Positions 4,027-64,000 of a DNA stretch of 64,000 bases are shown here, piece by piece. Numbering within the stretch: position 1 is the stretch's first letter; each line of letters begins with the position of its first letter. Below the pieces are notes generated by a model, which searched no databases, was not told the origin of the DNA, and worked only from the letters and a program-made list of their open reading frames with translations. The stretch is from the NCBI GenBank assembly GCA_020160935.1, contig JAIUPL010000014.1:1-64000 (forward strand). The letters run 5' to 3'. A program made the position numbers and the translations under genes. The stretch comes from Bacteroidota bacterium (GTDB lineage Bacteria > Bacteroidota > Bacteroidia > Chitinophagales > Saprospiraceae).

Positions 4027-4174
<148 letters not shown>

Positions 4175-4182
<8 letters not shown>

Positions 4183-14428: not shown

Positions 14429-14572
14429 GAGTCCTGAGTCGTAAGTCCTGAGTCCTAAGTCCGTAGAGTGTACCTATAACTCTTGGCTTTAATTTATAGG
14501 AGGCGCCCATAGTTACAGGTACACTCTACGGACTTAGGACTCAGGACTTACGACTCAGGACTCTCATTCCAC
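14420..14572. repeat. Perfect 56-bp inverted repeat with (AGTCCTG/A)n arms
   Basis: Positions 14420-14475 and 14517-14572 are exact reverse complements around a 41-nt loop. Each arm is GTGGAATGAG, then AGTCCTG, AGTCGTA, AGTCCTG, AGTCCTA heptads, then the core CCGTAGAGTGTACCT. The arms extend through the stop codons and the last two codons (Val-Glu) of both convergent genes, so both end GTG GAA TGA. It is likely a bidirectional terminator and shows that one gene end was copied onto the other. Confidence 0.95.
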
Positions 14573-19701: not shown

Positions 19702-20565
19702 TCACCTGAAATTCTGCCGGAATGCCTCCGGTGAATATCCGATATGCTTTTTAAAAAACCGGATGAAATAAGATGTATCTTCATAACCGAGGTGGTCGGC
19801 AATTTCCTTGACCTGGCTGGGTGTAGCCAGCAGGTACCTTTTGGCTTCCAGGAGGATGTGTTCGTTGATCATATCCGAAGCGGTTTTGCCGATGCTCGAT
19901 TTGGTGATTTCATTTAACTGATAGGCCGACAGGTTCATCATTTTCGTGTAGTGAGACACCTGTTTGTGGGTGGCAATGTGTTTTTCGAGCAATTCCTGAA
20001 AGTCTTCAAAACGTTCCTGGGTGTAGTTGTTGGCAGGGCTCGATTCGTGTGCAGCAAGCGCGCCCTGGCGCATCAGTTCCACAAAAAAAATATCGAGCCC
20101 CGACTGGATTACATCGCGGTAGCCTTCTTCTCTGTTGGTAAATTCCTGATACATCAGCGCCATGACCGACGCGGTTTTGTCATATCGGGCGCTCTCAAAA
20201 TCATAGTAATTTTTATTGCCAGCGCCTGTAAAACGATGGCTGGGCGACTTGAGCGTCGGCTGATAAAACTCGGCATTGAACTCGAGCAGATACCCTTTAC
20301 TGCCTGCATGCAAATGAAGTTGGTGTACTTGCCCGGGGCGCAAAAAGAAAACGGCATGGTCGTGCACTTCGTAATCCTGAAAATCTACCTGGTGCACGCC
20401 TGTCCCGCTTGTCAGGGCAAGAATAAAATAGAAATCATGCCGGTGCAAATCATGGAACAGGTCCTGTTCACCCAGAATATCCTCTACCCGCCTTATTTTA
20501 AATCGTTCGGGAGCAGATAATACCGCCGGGGAGGGCGTGAGTTGTCTGACAGGAATATTTTTCAT
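19702..20565 (-). CDS. AraC-family transcriptional regulator
   Basis: The 287-residue protein has an N-terminal cupin-like sensing domain (HDFYFILALTSGTGVHQVDFQDYEV) and a C-terminal pair of helix-turn-helix motifs ending in the AraC signature VKEIADHLGYEDTSYFIRFFKKHIGYSPEAFR. It probably responds to a small molecule and controls the SDR downstream or itself. The methionine at MKNIPVRQ is chosen over an upstream ATG because a TATATTTG box lies between the two. Confidence 0.85.
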   Translation of the reverse strand: MKNIPVRQLTPSPAVLSAPERFKIRRVEDILGEQDLFHDLHRHDFYFILALTSGTGVHQVDFQDYEVHDHAVFFLRPGQVHQLHLHAGSKGYLLEFNAEFYQPTLKSPSHRFTGAGNKNYYDFESARYDKTASVMALMYQEFTNREEGYRDVIQSGLDIFFVELMRQGALAAHESSPANNYTQERFEDFQELLEKHIATHKQVSHYTKMMNLSAYQLNEITKSSIGKTASDMINEHILLEAKRYLLATPSQVKEIADHLGYEDTSYFIRFFKKHIGYSPEAFRQNFR

Positions 20566-40647: not shown

Positions 40648-42492
40648 ATGAAGCAACGCATTCTTTTCTTTCTCTTCTTTGGTACTACCATCCTTTCCGC
40701 CCAGCCTGAGCGATGGCAGCAACGCGTGGATTACAACATGAACATAGACATGGACGCTGCGCGCCACCAATACCACGGCACGATGCGCCTTGCCTACACC
40801 AACAATAGCCCTGACACGCTCGACAAGGTATTTTTTCACCAGTATTTCAATGCTTTCCAGCCCAACAGCATGATGGATGTGCGCTCGCGCACTATTGAAG
40901 ATCCTGACCGGCGGGTGCTCGACCGCATCCTGAAACTAAAACCCGAAGAACAAGGCTATATCAAGGTGAACACCCTGAAACACAACGGCAAAGGGGTGCG
41001 TTTCATGTCCAATGAAACCATACTCGAAGTGACGCTTTCCGAACCCATCCTGCCGGGCAGCACCACGGTATTTGAAATGGAATGGGATGCACAGGTGCCG
41101 CTGCAGGTGCGCCGCTCGGGCCGCGACAACCGCGAAGGGGTGGCTTATTCCATGTCGCAATGGTACCCAAAACTCTGCGAATACGACTACCAGGGCTGGC
41201 ACGCCAATCCGTACATCGCCCGCGAGTTTTATGGCGTATGGGGCGACTTCGACGTGAAAATTTCTATCGACAAAAACTATGTAGTAGCAGCAGGCGGCTA
41301 CCTCCAAAACCCGCAGGAAACCGGCTATGGCTACGAAGACCCAACACAGCCGTTGCGTCGGCCCGAAGGCGACAAACTCCTGTGGCATTTCAAAACACCC
41401 AATGTGCACGATTTCTGCTGGGCGGCCGATCCGGAATATACCCAGGTGGTACACAAGGCGGAAGACGGCACAACGATTCGTTTTTTCTGGCAAAAAGGAA
41501 AAGGTTACGACGAACAATGGCAAAAACTGCCGGCCATCATGGATCGCGCGCGTACACACATGAACAAACATTTTGGCAAATATCCTTACCAGGAATATTA
41601 CTTCATTCAGGGTGGCGACGGCGGAATGGAGTATCCCCTGGCAACGCTTATGAATGGCAAAACTTCGCTGAATTCATTGGTAGGTACGGCCGTACACGAA
41701 CAATTGCACTCCTGGTACCAGATGATTCTTGGCACCAATGAAAGCCTCTATGCCTGGATGGACGAAGGATTTACCTCTTTCGCAGAAGATATTGTGATGA
41801 ATGAACTGGCCCGCGAAGGTTTTCTGCCCGGGCAGGCAGCAGAAGAAAATCCGCATGAAGGGGTATACCGCGCCTACCAGCAATTGGCCAGCAGCGGCAA
41901 GGAAGAGCCGCTCACTACTCATGCCGACCATTTCAACTGCAACTATGCCTATTCTGTGGCCGCCTACGTCAAAGGCGATGTGTTTCTGTCCCAACTGGAA
42001 TACATCATCGGCAAGGATGCTTTTGCCAAAGGCCTGCTGCGGTATTTCGATACCTGGAAATTCAAACATCCCAATGCCAATGACTGCGTCCGCGTATTTG
42101 AAAAACAAAGCGGCCTCGAACTCGACTGGTACAAGGAAGATTTCGTCAACAGCATCAAAACAGTTGACTACGCGATCGATACGGTATATGAAAATGACAA
42201 AAACACGTACGTATCCATCCAGCGCAAAGGTCTGATGGCCATGCCACTCGATATTGTGGTGACTTACTCCAACGACGATCAGGAAATTTTCTACGCCCCG
42301 CTGGAAAGCATGCGCGGCGAAAAAGCACCCGAAAGCAATACCAAACGTACGCTCCTGCCCGATCACCGCTGGGTAGACCCCGGATTTACGTTTGAAATAC
42401 CGTGTAAGTTGAAAAAGATTGCCAAAATTGAAATCGACCCCAGCCATCGGATGGCCGATCAGGATTGGGAAGATAATTTGTGGAAAAAATAA
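40648..42492 (+). CDS. M1-family zinc metallopeptidase
   Basis: The 614-residue protein has a signal peptide (MKQRILFFLFFGTTILSAQ) and the M1 catalytic motif AVHEQLHSWYQ at about residues 348-358, with the third zinc ligand in WMDEGFTSFAED about 19 residues later (HExxH-x18-E). The usual GAMEN motif appears as GGDGGMEYPLATLMNG, with the Glu kept. It should be a periplasmic or outer-membrane aminopeptidase acting on peptides. Its stop is followed at once by a heptad-armed palindrome. Confidence 0.9.
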   Translation: MKQRILFFLFFGTTILSAQPERWQQRVDYNMNIDMDAARHQYHGTMRLAYTNNSPDTLDKVFFHQYFNAFQPNSMMDVRSRTIEDPDRRVLDRILKLKPEEQGYIKVNTLKHNGKGVRFMSNETILEVTLSEPILPGSTTVFEMEWDAQVPLQVRRSGRDNREGVAYSMSQWYPKLCEYDYQGWHANPYIAREFYGVWGDFDVKISIDKNYVVAAGGYLQNPQETGYGYEDPTQPLRRPEGDKLLWHFKTPNVHDFCWAADPEYTQVVHKAEDGTTIRFFWQKGKGYDEQWQKLPAIMDRARTHMNKHFGKYPYQEYYFIQGGDGGMEYPLATLMNGKTSLNSLVGTAVHEQLHSWYQMILGTNESLYAWMDEGFTSFAEDIVMNELAREGFLPGQAAEENPHEGVYRAYQQLASSGKEEPLTTHADHFNCNYAYSVAAYVKGDVFLSQLEYIIGKDAFAKGLLRYFDTWKFKHPNANDCVRVFEKQSGLELDWYKEDFVNSIKTVDYAIDTVYENDKNTYVSIQRKGLMAMPLDIVVTYSNDDQEIFYAPLESMRGEKAPESNTKRTLLPDHRWVDPGFTFEIPCKLKKIAKIEIDPSHRMADQDWEDNLWKK

Positions 42493-42640
42493 AGTCCTGA
42501 GTCCTAAGTCCTAAGTCCTAAGTCCGTAGAGTACACCTTCATGCTCTTGGCATTGTTATTTGTGAATGCCAAGAGCATGAAGGTGTACTCTACGGACTTA
42601 GGACTTAGGACTCAGGACTCAGGACTTACGACTTAGGACT
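42493..42640. repeat. Inverted repeat with (AGTCCTA)n arms and GTAGAGTACACC core
   Basis: Positions 42507-42554 and 42565-42612 pair perfectly over 48 bp around a 10-nt loop (GTTATTTGTG); outside that the AGTCCTA/AGTCCTG heptads continue imperfectly from 42493 to 42640. The core CCGTAGAGTACACCTTC is nearly that of the palindrome at 14420-14572, and the heptad unit is the same. It lies between two plus-strand genes and the left arm starts at the first base after a stop codon. Confidence 0.95.
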
Positions 42641-44536: not shown

Positions 44537-44539
44537 ATT

Positions 44540-44653
44540 GAGTTATGAGTTATGAGTTATGAGTTTTACTCACAATGCTATCGGCATTTTCAAAAGAGTG
44601 GCCGATAGCATTGTGAGTAAAACTCATAACTCATCACTCATAACTCATAACTC
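44540..44653. repeat. Inverted repeat with (GAGTTAT)n arms, left of the ferredoxin gene
   Basis: Positions 44552-44585 and 44601-44634 pair perfectly over 34 bp around a 15-nt loop. The arms are GAGTTAT heptads leading to the core TTTTACTCACAATGCTATCG. The right arm ends a few bases before the ferredoxin ATG. A sibling with the same heptad lies just after that gene. Confidence 0.95.
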
Positions 44654-44661
44654 TCCTCTGC

Positions 44662-44979
44662 ATGAATACCATCCAAGTCAACATCATCGACCGTGAAGGC
44701 GCCCGGCACGAACTAGAAGCCCCCACTGATATGAATATGAGTGTCATGGAATTGTGCAAATCGTACGAACTTCCGGTAGAGGGCACTTGCGGCGGCATGG
44801 CGCTCTGCGCCTCCTGCCATGTGTACGTATTGAGCGACCAGGAACTCCCGGAACCTACCGACGACGAAATTGCGATGCTGGATGCCGCGTTTTTTGTAAA
44901 ACCCAACAGTCGCCTCGGTTGTCAGTTGAAACTGAAAAATGAAATGGACGGACTGACGCTGGAGTTGGCACCGGTTTGA
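44662..44979 (+). CDS. [2Fe-2S] ferredoxin (adrenodoxin/putidaredoxin type)
   Basis: The 105-residue protein has the cluster ligands Cys43, Cys49, Cys52 (GTCGGMALCASCHV) and Cys87 (RLGCQL), the C-x5-C-x2-C spacing of vertebrate/bacterial-type ferredoxins that serve P450s or Fe-S assembly. The DDE stretch (PTDDEIAMLDAA) matches the partner-docking acidic patch. It is probably the partner of the ferredoxin reductase encoded 125 bp upstream. Its stop codon TGA is the first base of the following repeat arm, and repeats flank the gene on both sides. Confidence 0.92.
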   Translation: MNTIQVNIIDREGARHELEAPTDMNMSVMELCKSYELPVEGTCGGMALCASCHVYVLSDQELPEPTDDEIAMLDAAFFVKPNSRLGCQLKLKNEMDGLTLELAPV

Positions 44980-45127
44980 GTTATGAGTTTTAAAGTTATG
45001 AGTTATGAGTTTTACTCACATTGCTTTCGGCTTTTTCAATAGTAATTTTCTCATCTGTGGCATGAGAGTACAGCACCATAACTCATAACTCATAACTCAT
45101 AACTTTAAAACTCATAACTCATAACTC
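44978..45127. repeat. Inverted repeat with (GAGTTAT)n arms, right of the ferredoxin gene
   Basis: Positions 44978-45011 and 45087-45120 pair perfectly over 34 bp. The left inner part (TTTTACTCACATTGC, then TTTCGGC) is nearly the core of the element at 44540, but the matching right inner part is gone, replaced by AATTTTCTCATCTGTGG-type sequence. The left arm begins within the ferredoxin stop codon and the right arm ends near the stop of the convergent acyltransferase gene. Confidence 0.9.
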
Positions 45128-58859: not shown

Positions 58860-59012
58860 CAGAATAACTACAAATATTTCCAATTATTAAATCATATTTG
58901 CCATGCCTTCCCTTCATCGCGGGCCCCGGTGATGAAGGCATCAAACTCTTCATTTTTTAAAAACATCGACTTCACATGGAAATGAATCTCCAAAAAGTGG
59001 CACGACTGTTGT

Positions 59013-59028
59013 CACACACACACACACA
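59013..59028 (+). repeat. (CA)8 microsatellite between a start codon and a T9SS gene
   Basis: Eight CA dinucleotides follow ATG GAA ATG (58976) in the leader. In the present length the frame from that ATG ends at a TAG shortly after. Removing one CA joins it to the long T9SS frame and creates a normal signal peptide. A short imperfect hairpin (ATGCCTTC ... GATGAAGGCAT) sits at 58903-58941 upstream. Confidence 0.8.
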
Positions 59029-59040
59029 TTTCGCACAATT

Positions 59041-60831
59041 TTGCTGGTTTTGGTTATGGTAGCCGGGTGTTGGGGGGTGAACGCGCAGGGCGGTCAATTT
59101 CAGTTTGGCGCTTTGAGCGCTCCTGACCCTGGTACGGGGATGCAACGCTGTACGGTTACCTGGGCATTACATGAGGCTACGATCGCCACTATTAATGCTT
59201 ACATCAGTTACAGTACCTCTCCAATTTGTATTGATATTGCGGCGACCCAAGCAAGTGTACCGGCGGAACTTTCTACTTACACCAATGTAACATCTACCGG
59301 AATCTCCCTTATTAAGGTATCCAACTCACCCCTTAATATCGCCCCTATTTATCCCAATTTCATTGTGATATACATCAGTGGGGAGCCTTCCGAATCAGTA
59401 ATTTTTTCAGGCGGCGGCTTTCTTACCAATCCCAACAACACTTCCTTTTCGATTGGATCAACCAACCCAACTTACCAATTCCCTTCAGGATACGGCATTA
59501 CTGGTGTCGCACAAAAACTTGGTGGCTCGGCCTGCAACGGAGGATCAAACAACTGGATACCAGATGTTCAATTCTCCATCAACAGGGTGCTTGCTCCGGG
59601 AGAGCCAGCCTGTTACGCAGGGCCTGCCATGCCTGCCAGTACTACCCCGGTTGATCCTTTTTATGCGTTTGAGAACCTGCCGCCGATGTTTTCCTATAGC
59701 CTTGCTGCCGCCAAAAACACCGGATGTGATTGCGGCCCATTAGGCCCCATCAACAATGTAGATAAAAACCTGGTTCGTTCTTATATCCTGGGGCTGGCAA
59801 CGCCAACACTCCTGGAAGGGCACACAGGTGACTATGATGCCAACGGCGCGCTGAATGCATATGACATGACTTTTATTACCAAATGCAACCTCGGAGAACA
59901 GTCGATGCCTTCTGTCTGGCGTTTTGCTGCAGTATCAAGTATCAGTAATTTTTCCAATCCGCTTATACAGAGTGTCAACCCGCTGCCACCGCTGCTGCCC
60001 AACACGCTGACGGTCAGCAGTTTGTCTGGTAATTCAACCGTCGACTTCGTGGGAATCAAACGAGGAGATGTGGATCAAAGTTGCACTACCTGCGGAGGCG
60101 CGCTAACGGGCGGCGGTCTGGAAGAACGCGGCGAGAGAAAACGGGTATATAAAGGTGTCAGCGTAGAAGGGAAAAGCATGGAAGCCGGGGAAGAACTGTT
60201 AATCCCTGTTGTGGCAACTGATGACCTGACCGGGTTGGCAATATTCGGCATGGAACTGGCATCGAGCAACAAAATCAGGTTGATGGAAGCAAAAGATGTC
60301 ATTCAAACAGACGAATACAGCGATTACAGAATAAGGGAAGAGAACGACGGACAGGTACTGCACTATGACTGGTTTACCATGACAAATGGCGGGAAAAAAA
60401 TCGCTCAGGGCGATGTGCTGTTTTATGTGCGCGTACAGTCGCTTGACAAAGTGATGAACCTGAAAGACGAATTGTTCCTGCTTCCATTCTCTCCGAACAA
60501 TATGCTGTTTTATGACAACGGCCAATCGGAAGCCGACTGGCGCCTGACAGAACCGGATAAAAAAACGTATGATCGTTTGTCAGCAGTTATCACTGGCGGC
60601 AACCTGTTAATGGGCGCTACCGCTCAGGTGGAAATATATGTACCACAAAGCGGTCTTTATCAAATAGTAGTGAGTGATATGTCGGGAAATGTTGCAAGTA
60701 CCCGGGCATTCGACGCTGCTGAAAAAGGCTGGATTAAAAAAGAAGTATCCATACCTGACCATGCAGGGGTGTACCAGATGACCATTTCATCTGCCTCCGA
60801 GCGCCATACCCTCCGCCTCGTCAGATATTAA
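59041..60831 (+). CDS. T9SS-secreted protein with dockerin-like segments, frame possibly switched
   Basis: The 596-residue reading frame has the T9SS type A sorting domain at its end (PQSGLYQIVVSDMSGNV ... GVYQMTISSASERHTLRL) and Asp/Asn-rich dockerin-like segments near the middle (GDYDANGALNAYDMTFI; VGIKRGDVDQS). Its N-terminus as read begins at TTG (LVLVMVAGCWGVNAQGGQ), a signal peptide lacking the usual basic start. The start ATG at 58976 is out of frame by the CA tract; with seven CA repeats the product would begin MEMNLQKVARLL and have a full signal peptide. It is followed by a terminator. Confidence 0.8.
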   Translation: MLVLVMVAGCWGVNAQGGQFQFGALSAPDPGTGMQRCTVTWALHEATIATINAYISYSTSPICIDIAATQASVPAELSTYTNVTSTGISLIKVSNSPLNIAPIYPNFIVIYISGEPSESVIFSGGGFLTNPNNTSFSIGSTNPTYQFPSGYGITGVAQKLGGSACNGGSNNWIPDVQFSINRVLAPGEPACYAGPAMPASTTPVDPFYAFENLPPMFSYSLAAAKNTGCDCGPLGPINNVDKNLVRSYILGLATPTLLEGHTGDYDANGALNAYDMTFITKCNLGEQSMPSVWRFAAVSSISNFSNPLIQSVNPLPPLLPNTLTVSSLSGNSTVDFVGIKRGDVDQSCTTCGGALTGGGLEERGERKRVYKGVSVEGKSMEAGEELLIPVVATDDLTGLAIFGMELASSNKIRLMEAKDVIQTDEYSDYRIREENDGQVLHYDWFTMTNGGKKIAQGDVLFYVRVQSLDKVMNLKDELFLLPFSPNNMLFYDNGQSEADWRLTEPDKKTYDRLSAVITGGNLLMGATAQVEIYVPQSGLYQIVVSDMSGNVASTRAFDAAEKGWIKKEVSIPDHAGVYQMTISSASERHTLRLVRY

Positions 60832-60909: not shown

Positions 60910-63900
60910 ATGCGCGCTCTTTTTATACTCCTTTTTCTTTGTTTATTTGCTTGGCCAGCCATTTCACAATCGTTTTTGGCAACCAAGGATTCCGTGTATT
61001 TTGATGCATCAGGAAGTCATGCCTATAATACTTTGGTATCGTACAATCCGGTGACTTGCCAGGATTCATTAATTACTGTTATTGATCAGGGAGACTATTA
61101 TTTTTTGCAGGTTTATGATGTGGCAGCAGGTCCCAACGGAGAAATATATTTGATGATAAACGCAGGTTCCGTTGCTACTGGCGTAGTATCTTGTATTTCT
61201 TTACTAAATGTTCAAACTGGGGCACTTACCTGTCTCGTTGATTTTCTTCCTATAGGATTGTTTGGCGGCACCTCCATGGTTTGCAGTGCCGACAGCATTT
61301 TATACGTCGCCGGAAATGGACTGATCTCTTATGATTTGAAAACAGGCGTAGTGACCGACCACGGCCTGTTTCCCAATTTTTATAATGCATCCGGGGATAT
61401 GGTCTTCAAAAACGAGCAACTTTATGTGACCATCTCCGCCAATCAACAACTGCTGCAGGTAAATATCGACAATCCTTCGGCCAGTCAGGTTGTGGCGTCT
61501 TATTCGCAAATACCGTTGCAAAGACAAATTTGGGGTATCGCTTCCAATGTGTATGACTGCGACAGCAGTGATATGTATTTGATTACCGGTGTATTAAATC
61601 CGAATCAAAGCCGCGAATACGATGTATACGGGCTTGATTTTGCTACACAACAGACCACTTTCCTGTGTACAGGAGGAGGTTGTTTTTATACCGGCAGCAC
61701 CACTTTCAACGAGTTTCTTGCTTCGGATTGTTCCGTCAGGCTCGATCTGGATCACAACAACAGCAGCGGCGCCGACAACGGCAACTACCAAGTGACAACC
61801 TGCGCTGGCGCGCCGATTTTCATCTCCGATACGTCGGATATGGTGTTGTACAGCGGCTACCGGATAGACTCTTTGTGCCTGCGCCTGAATCCGGCTTATC
61901 CGGGAGAAATACTTACATCTGCGACTGTACCTGTAACACTCGCTGTGGCAGGACAAAACACCCCGCATCTGACATTCAGTAATACCAGCAATATCCTGTA
62001 CCCGGATTTTCAGGCGGCACTTCGGTCAGTTTTTTGGCAATATTCGGGTAGTGGAAGCCCTGCGGGCGGCCTGCGTACGGTAGAAGTAACACTGTATGCG
62101 CGCGGAGGCCGACAGGATACTTCTTTTGCCTTCCTGCACCTCGAACTGCCGCCTTCGGCAGGGCGCGACACATCGGAATCTGTCTGTATGGGCGCCGTGC
62201 CGTTCCAGCTGGATTCTCTCCTGTCGGCAGACGCCGATACTGGAGGTATGTGGATACCCGCCTTGCCTGGCGCCGTGTTTGATCCTGCTATTGCGGGCAC
62301 ATATTCATTCCAGTATTTGACGACAGGCCATGAATGCCCCTCAGATACGGCTATAGTAGAAATAGTAGTGCCGACGCTTCCTGCGTTCTCGTTGGGCAGT
62401 GATGCTTCCATTTGTTATGGCGACAGCCTGTTGCTCCTTGCGCCGCAAACCGCCGTGTGGCAGGATGGAAGTATGAGCAACACCTTTGCTGCAAATCAGG
62501 CAGGCCTGTTCTGGGCCGAAGTGACCAATGCGCAAGGCTGTGTTTTTCGCGACAGCATATTGCTCAGCCAGATTCCTCTACAAAACACGAACGAAGTAAT
62601 ACAACGCTGCTTCGGTCAGGATTACATCTGGAATGGCCACGCATTGCAAACGGACACAACTGTCTGTGCAACGTTTCTTTCCATAGCCGGCTGCGACTCC
62701 TCCCATTGCCTGACGCTGGATTTTTTCCATCCCCTTCTGTCAACAGATACCACACTGTGCGAAGGTCAAAGTATTTCCTGGCATAGTCAGGTATACAATA
62801 GTAGCGGTACATTTACTGATACCGTTCTATTGGATGGCTGCCAGACTATTACATCACTACAAATCAATCTTGTTCCGGCAGATACGATATCCATTTTTGA
62901 AACGATTTGCCCCGAAAGCACCTATCTACTTGGTAATCAGGAATATACTTTACCAGGACTTTATGTATTAAACGTGCCTACAGAAGCAGGATGCGATAGT
63001 ATTATTGCCCTGTCACTGGCCTGGCAGGAGACGCCGACACTTGTGATTGCCGGCGACACTTCGTTTTGTTCCGGAAGCACCACCGTTCTTTCCACCTCCG
63101 GTTTCGATTCCTACGCCTGGTCGCTCAGCGGCGCTACTGGCCCCAACCTGACAGTAACAAACAGCGGAACTTACACTGTCACTGCCACCAACGCACAAGG
63201 CTGCACCGCTACCGCTTCTCTGGCCGTGAGCGAATCGGCGCCCATCGTGGCCGCCTGGGAACTCCAACCGCCCCTGTGCCACGGCGCTGCCGACGGCTGG
63301 ATCGAACTGCTCGGCATCGAGGGCGGATCAAGCCCTTTTTCCTATCGATTCCTCCAGAATGCGCCTGTCACACAGCCCTTCTTTGAACATTTGCCCGCAG
63401 GCGCTTATGCCATCCGCACGTCCGACGCCGACGGCTGTTTTGTGGATACAACCTTGGTCTTGATCGATCCGGAAGCCCTGACCCTCTCGCTCGGCCCCGA
63501 CATCTTTGTGAGCGCCGGTAACGCCTGGTCGCTTTCGGCGCAGACAACAGGCGGGCAGGGCGCGCTGACCTACGTCTGGTTACCGCCTGCGGGGCTCAGT
63601 TGCGCCGACTGTCCCAACCCTGTTCTTTCCCCTTCGGATTCTGTAGTTTACCTGCTCACCGTAACCGACGCGAACGGGTGCAGCGCCACCGACAGCATCC
63701 GGGTATTCGTGCAAGGCGCGGGGTTTCTGTTTATTCCCAATGTTTTTTCTCCCGATGACGACGGCAAAAACGATTTTTTCGGCGTCTTCGCCGACCCTGA
63801 CCGGGTGCGAAGCATCGAACTCCTGCGCGTGTACGACCGATGGGGCACGCTCGTGTACGAGGAATCCGGCGCACCGTTTAACGACCTCAACAAAGGATGG

Positions 63901-64000
63901 GACGGTGCTTTTCGCGGAAATCCTGCTGCGCCGGGTGTGTATGTGTGGTATACCTCCGTCAGGCTGACCAACGGAGAGGTGCTGCAGCGGTCGGGAGATG
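60910..64000 (+). CDS. Large T9SS protein with SprB-like and CHU_C (type B) domain, cut by the window edge
   Basis: The frame opens at ATG 60910 and runs 1030 codons with no stop to the window end, so no complete ORF is counted there. It has a signal peptide (MRALFILLFLCLFAWPAISQS), a first part of about 350 residues with propeller-like blades, then repeated Ig-like/SprB-type modules (ICYGDSLLLLAP; LCEGQSISWHSQ; PPLCHGAADGWIELL, with Gly and Asp patterns), and at the end the CHU_C gliding-type sorting domain (NVFSPDDDGKNDFF; LLRVYDRWGTLVYEE; NPAAPGVYVWYTSVRL). Only a few residues should be missing. It is probably exported and cell-surface attached, an adhesin-like or gliding-related protein. 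Confidence 0.88.
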   Translation, partial: MRALFILLFLCLFAWPAISQSFLATKDSVYFDASGSHAYNTLVSYNPVTCQDSLITVIDQGDYYFLQVYDVAAGPNGEIYLMINAGSVATGVVSCISLLNVQTGALTCLVDFLPIGLFGGTSMVCSADSILYVAGNGLISYDLKTGVVTDHGLFPNFYNASGDMVFKNEQLYVTISANQQLLQVNIDNPSASQVVASYSQIPLQRQIWGIASNVYDCDSSDMYLITGVLNPNQSREYDVYGLDFATQQTTFLCTGGGCFYTGSTTFNEFLASDCSVRLDLDHNNSSGADNGNYQVTTCAGAPIFISDTSDMVLYSGYRIDSLCLRLNPAYPGEILTSATVPVTLAVAGQNTPHLTFSNTSNILYPDFQAALRSVFWQYSGSGSPAGGLRTVEVTLYARGGRQDTSFAFLHLELPPSAGRDTSESVCMGAVPFQLDSLLSADADTGGMWIPALPGAVFDPAIAGTYSFQYLTTGHECPSDTAIVEIVVPTLPAFSLGSDASICYGDSLLLLAPQTAVWQDGSMSNTFAANQAGLFWAEVTNAQGCVFRDSILLSQIPLQNTNEVIQRCFGQDYIWNGHALQTDTTVCATFLSIAGCDSSHCLTLDFFHPLLSTDTTLCEGQSISWHSQVYNSSGTFTDTVLLDGCQTITSLQINLVPADTISIFETICPESTYLLGNQEYTLPGLYVLNVPTEAGCDSIIALSLAWQETPTLVIAGDTSFCSGSTTVLSTSGFDSYAWSLSGATGPNLTVTNSGTYTVTATNAQGCTATASLAVSESAPIVAAWELQPPLCHGAADGWIELLGIEGGSSPFSYRFLQNAPVTQPFFEHLPAGAYAIRTSDADGCFVDTTLVLIDPEALTLSLGPDIFVSAGNAWSLSAQTTGGQGALTYVWLPPAGLSCADCPNPVLSPSDSVVYLLTVTDANGCSATDSIRVFVQGAGFLFIPNVFSPDDDGKNDFFGVFADPDRVRSIELLRVYDRWGTLVYEESGAPFNDLNKGWDGAFRGNPAAPGVYVWYTSVRLTNGEVLQRSGD

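Follow-up and report, generated by a model that had tools for sequence, protein, structure and literature searches.

The window analysed here, a stretch of 64,000 nucleotides from a bacterium of the Saprospiraceae, carries near its right-hand end two neighbouring genes for putative surface proteins, the first of which contains a run of eight CA units within its predicted signal-peptide codons. The features of this region are as follows:

58893..58900, forward strand: promoter-like box CATATTTG, with five of the six fixed bases of the consensus TAnnTTTG (from the sequence); left edge of the cassette discussed below
58911..58938, forward strand: candidate inverted repeat in the 5' leader, CCTTCATC...GATGAAGG (sequence comparison)
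58976..59012, forward strand: start codon and n-region, MEMNLQKVARLL, ending on the first base of the following codon (sequence, homologue alignment)
59013..59028, forward strand: (CA)8 tract, the proposed switch, out of frame in the assembled state (sequence, frame arithmetic)
59029..59088, forward strand: hydrophobic core and end of the signal peptide, FRTILLVLVMVAGCWGVNA, with cleavage before Q (sequence, alignment); right edge of the cassette
59041..60831, forward strand: surface-protein ORF of 596 codons from TTG 59041, with the mature part from about 59086 (ORF reading)
60145..60480, forward strand: beta-rich domain resembling cohesin (AlphaFold model, strands 369-480; Foldseek)
60628..60822, forward strand: C-terminal T9SS type A sorting domain, a weak match (TIGR04183)
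60910..64000, to 64017 in the contig, forward strand: gene for a surface protein with a CHU_C domain (Pfam CHU_C, 1.2e-12; synteny)

The sequence-only reading had described a (CA)8 tract followed by an early stop, and this is what lies at 59013-59028: translation from the ATG at 58976 is out of frame relative to the 596-codon ORF and ends after 28 codons. The stop does follow the repeat, but the TAG spans 59060-59062 and the end given as 59061 had to be corrected. The claim that one CA unit fewer would join the ATG to the long ORF was borne out by frame arithmetic, since with 7 or 10 units the frame reads through to give 617 or 619 aa, consisting of the full signal peptide MEMNLQKVARLLSHTHT-FRTILLVLVMVAGCWGVNA, cleaved before Q, and then the mature protein. 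The same arithmetic gave no read-through from this ATG with 5, 6, 8, 9, 11 or 12 units. A second in-frame ATG, at 58982, lies within the n-region. Upstream of TTG 59041 the long frame contains no ATG, GTG or TTG, this TTG being its first possible start.

The repeat has a unit length not divisible by three, it lies inside the translated 5' end, and the tract exceeds the length expected by chance. It is the only CA tract of at least 8 units in the 5.84-Mb genome, for which a first-order Markov model predicts about 0.004 tracts of the (CA)8 type, and under local codon usage the probability of HTHTHT being spelled as pure CAC/ACA is about 0.0009. The sole other (CA)7 of the genome (L256, G000:C14:89458-89471) abuts GC-rich, foreign-looking sequence, a junction that is possibly an assembly chimera. 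Ahead of the gene, the box CATATTTG is presumably the promoter, as judged from general knowledge of Bacteroidota promoters, whose -7 consensus is TAnnTTTG. Substitutions in relatives preserve the pairing of the leader inverted repeat via G-U; because its stability does not exceed that of shuffled sequences (z -1.1 to 0.1), we rejected it as a stable fold and list the hairpin as a candidate only.

The protein encoded behind the tract matched no Pfam family at E <=1. An AlphaFold model (mean pLDDT 71) contains beta domains, and the Foldseek matches include the cohesin chains 2w1n, 4fl4, 3kcp and 3l8q, at a target TM-score of only about 0.3 and low coverage; on this model, the cohesin matches appear to belong to the domain at 60145..60480. 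By eye, GDYDANGALNAYD and GIKRGDVDQSC resemble dockerin motifs. TIGR04183 scored 19 bits here and 20-21 bits in two homologues, against a cutoff of 23, at the expected C-terminal position. A body of 596 open codons has a chance probability of about 1e-13, third-position changes prevail in comparisons with homologues, and the estimates of dN (about 0.4) and dS (saturated or about 2.4) give a dN/dS of about 0.17, indicating purifying selection. Homologues of the CHU_C gene sit behind the switched gene in most relatives.

A search for homologues of the protein in 61 genomes led us to identify two close ones, at 50% and 53% identity and both in one genome (G031), plus some nine others of the genus that are more distant, the comparison comprising one assembly per species, mostly metagenome-assembled where the source was stated. 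Each G031 copy carries (CA)7, which puts it in frame with the same ATG; G016, with (CA)8, and G012 and G022, each with (CA)10, are out of frame and have long open bodies. In-frame and out-of-frame states were both seen, then, across homologues, in different species only. The position of the tract is occupied by eight-base repeats in G024 and by a CT tract in G025. The members from G011 and G019, whose G tracts are short or interrupted, are out of frame as well, so that not every member of the family fits a simple switch. The relatives in G007 and G009 are near-identical around the tract, with 7 vs 11 units, and their bodies, like that in G026, have further breaks, which in G007 and G009 may be indel errors. 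In the G026 homologue (L056, G026:C40, ~20130-20249) an inverted-repeat insertion of about 90 bp splits the CA tract and separates the n-region from the (CA)9 that is left.

A census of every CA and CT tract of at least 7 units in 42 genomes of the genus yielded 18, vs about 3 expected (13 CA vs 2.2; 5 CT vs 0.6). A strict automatic test for location at a signal peptide, demanding a long open frame, an ATG just upstream and a hydrophobic stretch just downstream, was passed by 11 of the 18 tracts; these are not all independent, four of the 11 being related cassette loci (this genome, G016 and G031). Random sites passed at 1.15% of site-strands, or 2.3% for either strand (p ~2.6e-14), a conservative background because it was drawn from loci containing this kind of gene. 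Five more signal-peptide tracts were recognized by reading (G007, G009, G021, G022:C5 and G017); the one in G021 is upstream of an in-frame ATG and therefore may act in the leader there. In all 16 signal-peptide tracts the coding strand carries CA or CT, and two CA tracts of the genus lie away from signal peptides (G000:C14 and G031:C380). (TA)7 is absent from the 42 genomes, with 1.4 expected. Poly-G tracts were considered as a parallel switch and rejected, since most of those in this genome lie between genes or at the ends of contigs.

At the level of the order, (CA)8 was found in 35 and (CT)8 in 15 of 299 genomes. Many of the sites that we read were again at signal peptides, including those of lipoproteins and of a TonB-dependent receptor, and some had no long frame nearby. 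CT tracts, encoding SLSLSL, were located at reprolysin-like metalloprotease genes at six loci among those checked, in different genera, some of these assignments being matches under Pfam's cutoff. Pfam T9SS tails were present in two proteins with CA/TG tracts (L261 and L266).

The phase variation proposed from the sequence alone thus gained support from homologues in both frames, the intact ORF, purifying selection and the enrichment of tracts at signal peptides, and we consider it very probable that the locus is a slipped-strand simple-sequence-repeat contingency locus, off as assembled. Slipped-strand mispairing during replication would gain or lose CA units within the signal-peptide codons. 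Ribosomes that initiate at ATG 58976 would, on a tract of 7 or 10 units, produce the full signal peptide and the protein, which would reach the surface by way of Sec and, as a probable second step, the type IX system; in the assembled state they would yield only a dead-end peptide of 28 residues, leaving the protein off in most cells. Switching in live populations would be reversible and might benefit the cells by helping them to evade phage or predators, or by hedging bets in adhesion. That most loci are off as assembled counts against a switch; among the ten loci with intact bodies three are on and seven off, which is compatible with the one third expected from random phase.

Constitutive translation of the protein from TTG 59041, or from some other start codon than ATG, is conceivable and would make the CA tract a relic in an untranslated leader. 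This TTG is in frame and precedes LVLVMVAG, a short hydrophobic N-terminus that could allow weak constitutive export, and a TTG can be read at the equivalent place in G016 and in one G031 copy. The second G031 copy, however, lacks it, a signal peptide begun there would have no charged n-region, and the conserved ATG, which opens a conserved n-region MxMxLQKVAR, is in frame in both G031 copies; we regard such a start as unlikely. Even less probable is that the repeat was miscounted in sequencing or assembly, the true count being 7 and the gene always on, for although miscounts can occur in draft assemblies, ordinary short reads span a tract of 16 bases and out-of-frame counts recur in many independent assemblies. 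The off state as assembled and the broken bodies in G007, G009 and G026 would also suit a decaying pseudogene whose frameshift is a one-off mutation, but the intact 596-codon body, its low dN/dS and the recurrence of the tract across many genes and species make this extremely improbable.

The switch sits in a block that is more alike among relatives than the protein behind it. From 58893 to about 59088 the DNA of this locus, of G016 and of both G031 copies is 86-92% identical, with the CATATTTG box as the left limit, the signal-peptide cleavage site as the right one and flanks without alignment beyond them. The block behaves as a cassette, because the mature proteins behind it are only 24-53% identical (53, 50 and ~25%); it may have been moved by recombination, or kept by selection on nucleotides. 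The CHU_C gene, compared with its G016 counterpart, is 63% identical at its end and 36% at its start, which on sequence grounds would be another sign of mosaicism. Within the genus the cassette occurs in G016 and G031, and in G026 with a divergent n-region; searches of 199 genomes of the family, this one apart, and of viral contigs returned no match to it. Our tentative proposal, which we consider possible rather than probable, is that the promoter-to-cleavage block works as a portable cassette: in different species it would have been joined by recombination to different mature surface proteins, rendering phase-variable whatever T9SS cargo follows, and switching of this kind at signal peptides would be a common and so far undescribed means of varying surface proteins and secreted metalloproteases in the Saprospiraceae and their order.

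Most known examples of phase variation driven by repeats come from host-adapted pathogens, notably human ones such as Helicobacter pylori. By analogy, the closest precedents for the mechanism would be oipA/hop of H. pylori, oipA having CT repeats in its signal peptide (PMC10564699), and opa of Neisseria, whose leader-peptide codons contain CTCTT repeats (PMC3960869). As in oipA/hop, a dinucleotide tract in signal-peptide codons would decide by frame on the expression of a surface protein, and the CT tracts of Saprospiraceae relatives encode SLSLSL, as CT repeats of H. pylori would; in contrast, the unit here is CA, giving His-Thr ahead of the hydrophobic core, and the cargo is a probable T9SS protein of an uncultured environmental Bacteroidota, for which the Pfam search, empty at E <=1, showed no link to Hop porins, the likeness being one of mechanism only. 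With opa it would have in common that the repeat lies in leader codons, that strand slippage does the switching, that some relatives have more than one such locus, with several per genome, and that variants recombine, whereas opa has a pentanucleotide unit, an outer-membrane barrel as product and conventional secretion. The CHU_C domain of the downstream partner and the weak T9SS tail of the switched gene resemble known Saprospiraceae CHU_C/T9SS surface proteins; no description of repeats controlling such cargo turned up in the literature searched, which covered only a minority of subscription journals and contained no paper joining 'phase variation' and 'Saprospiraceae', nor, among work on repeat switching in Bacteroidota, a signal-peptide switch like this one. 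If true, our reading would extend repeat switching to environmental bacteria that are uncultured, where it would act on the signal peptides of surface proteins and of secreted metalloproteases, and would point to phages, predators or changing surfaces, not immunity, as the source of selection; it is testable through repeat counts in existing metagenome reads.

Other repeats were observed in the window and the genome. Intergenic tandem arrays of 7 bp, in inverted pairs some 60-100 bp apart, occur at 42492-42640, 44539-44653, 44977-45127, 14430-14563 and 4029-4180; the unit varies by site (for example AAGTCCT / GGACTTA and TGAGTTA / AACTCAT), the architecture is constant, and a hairpin is visible between some of them. 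In their first 50 bases, contigs C3, C11 and C15 of G000 start inside or close to G/C runs 13-25 bases long, which suggests assembly breaks or artefacts at poly-G. At L248 (G000:C24, ~53662) a poly-C run lies within an apparent CRISPR array, in which the unit GAGTTGGCGGGCAAATTCCAGAAGAAGAAGGATTGAAAC recurs.
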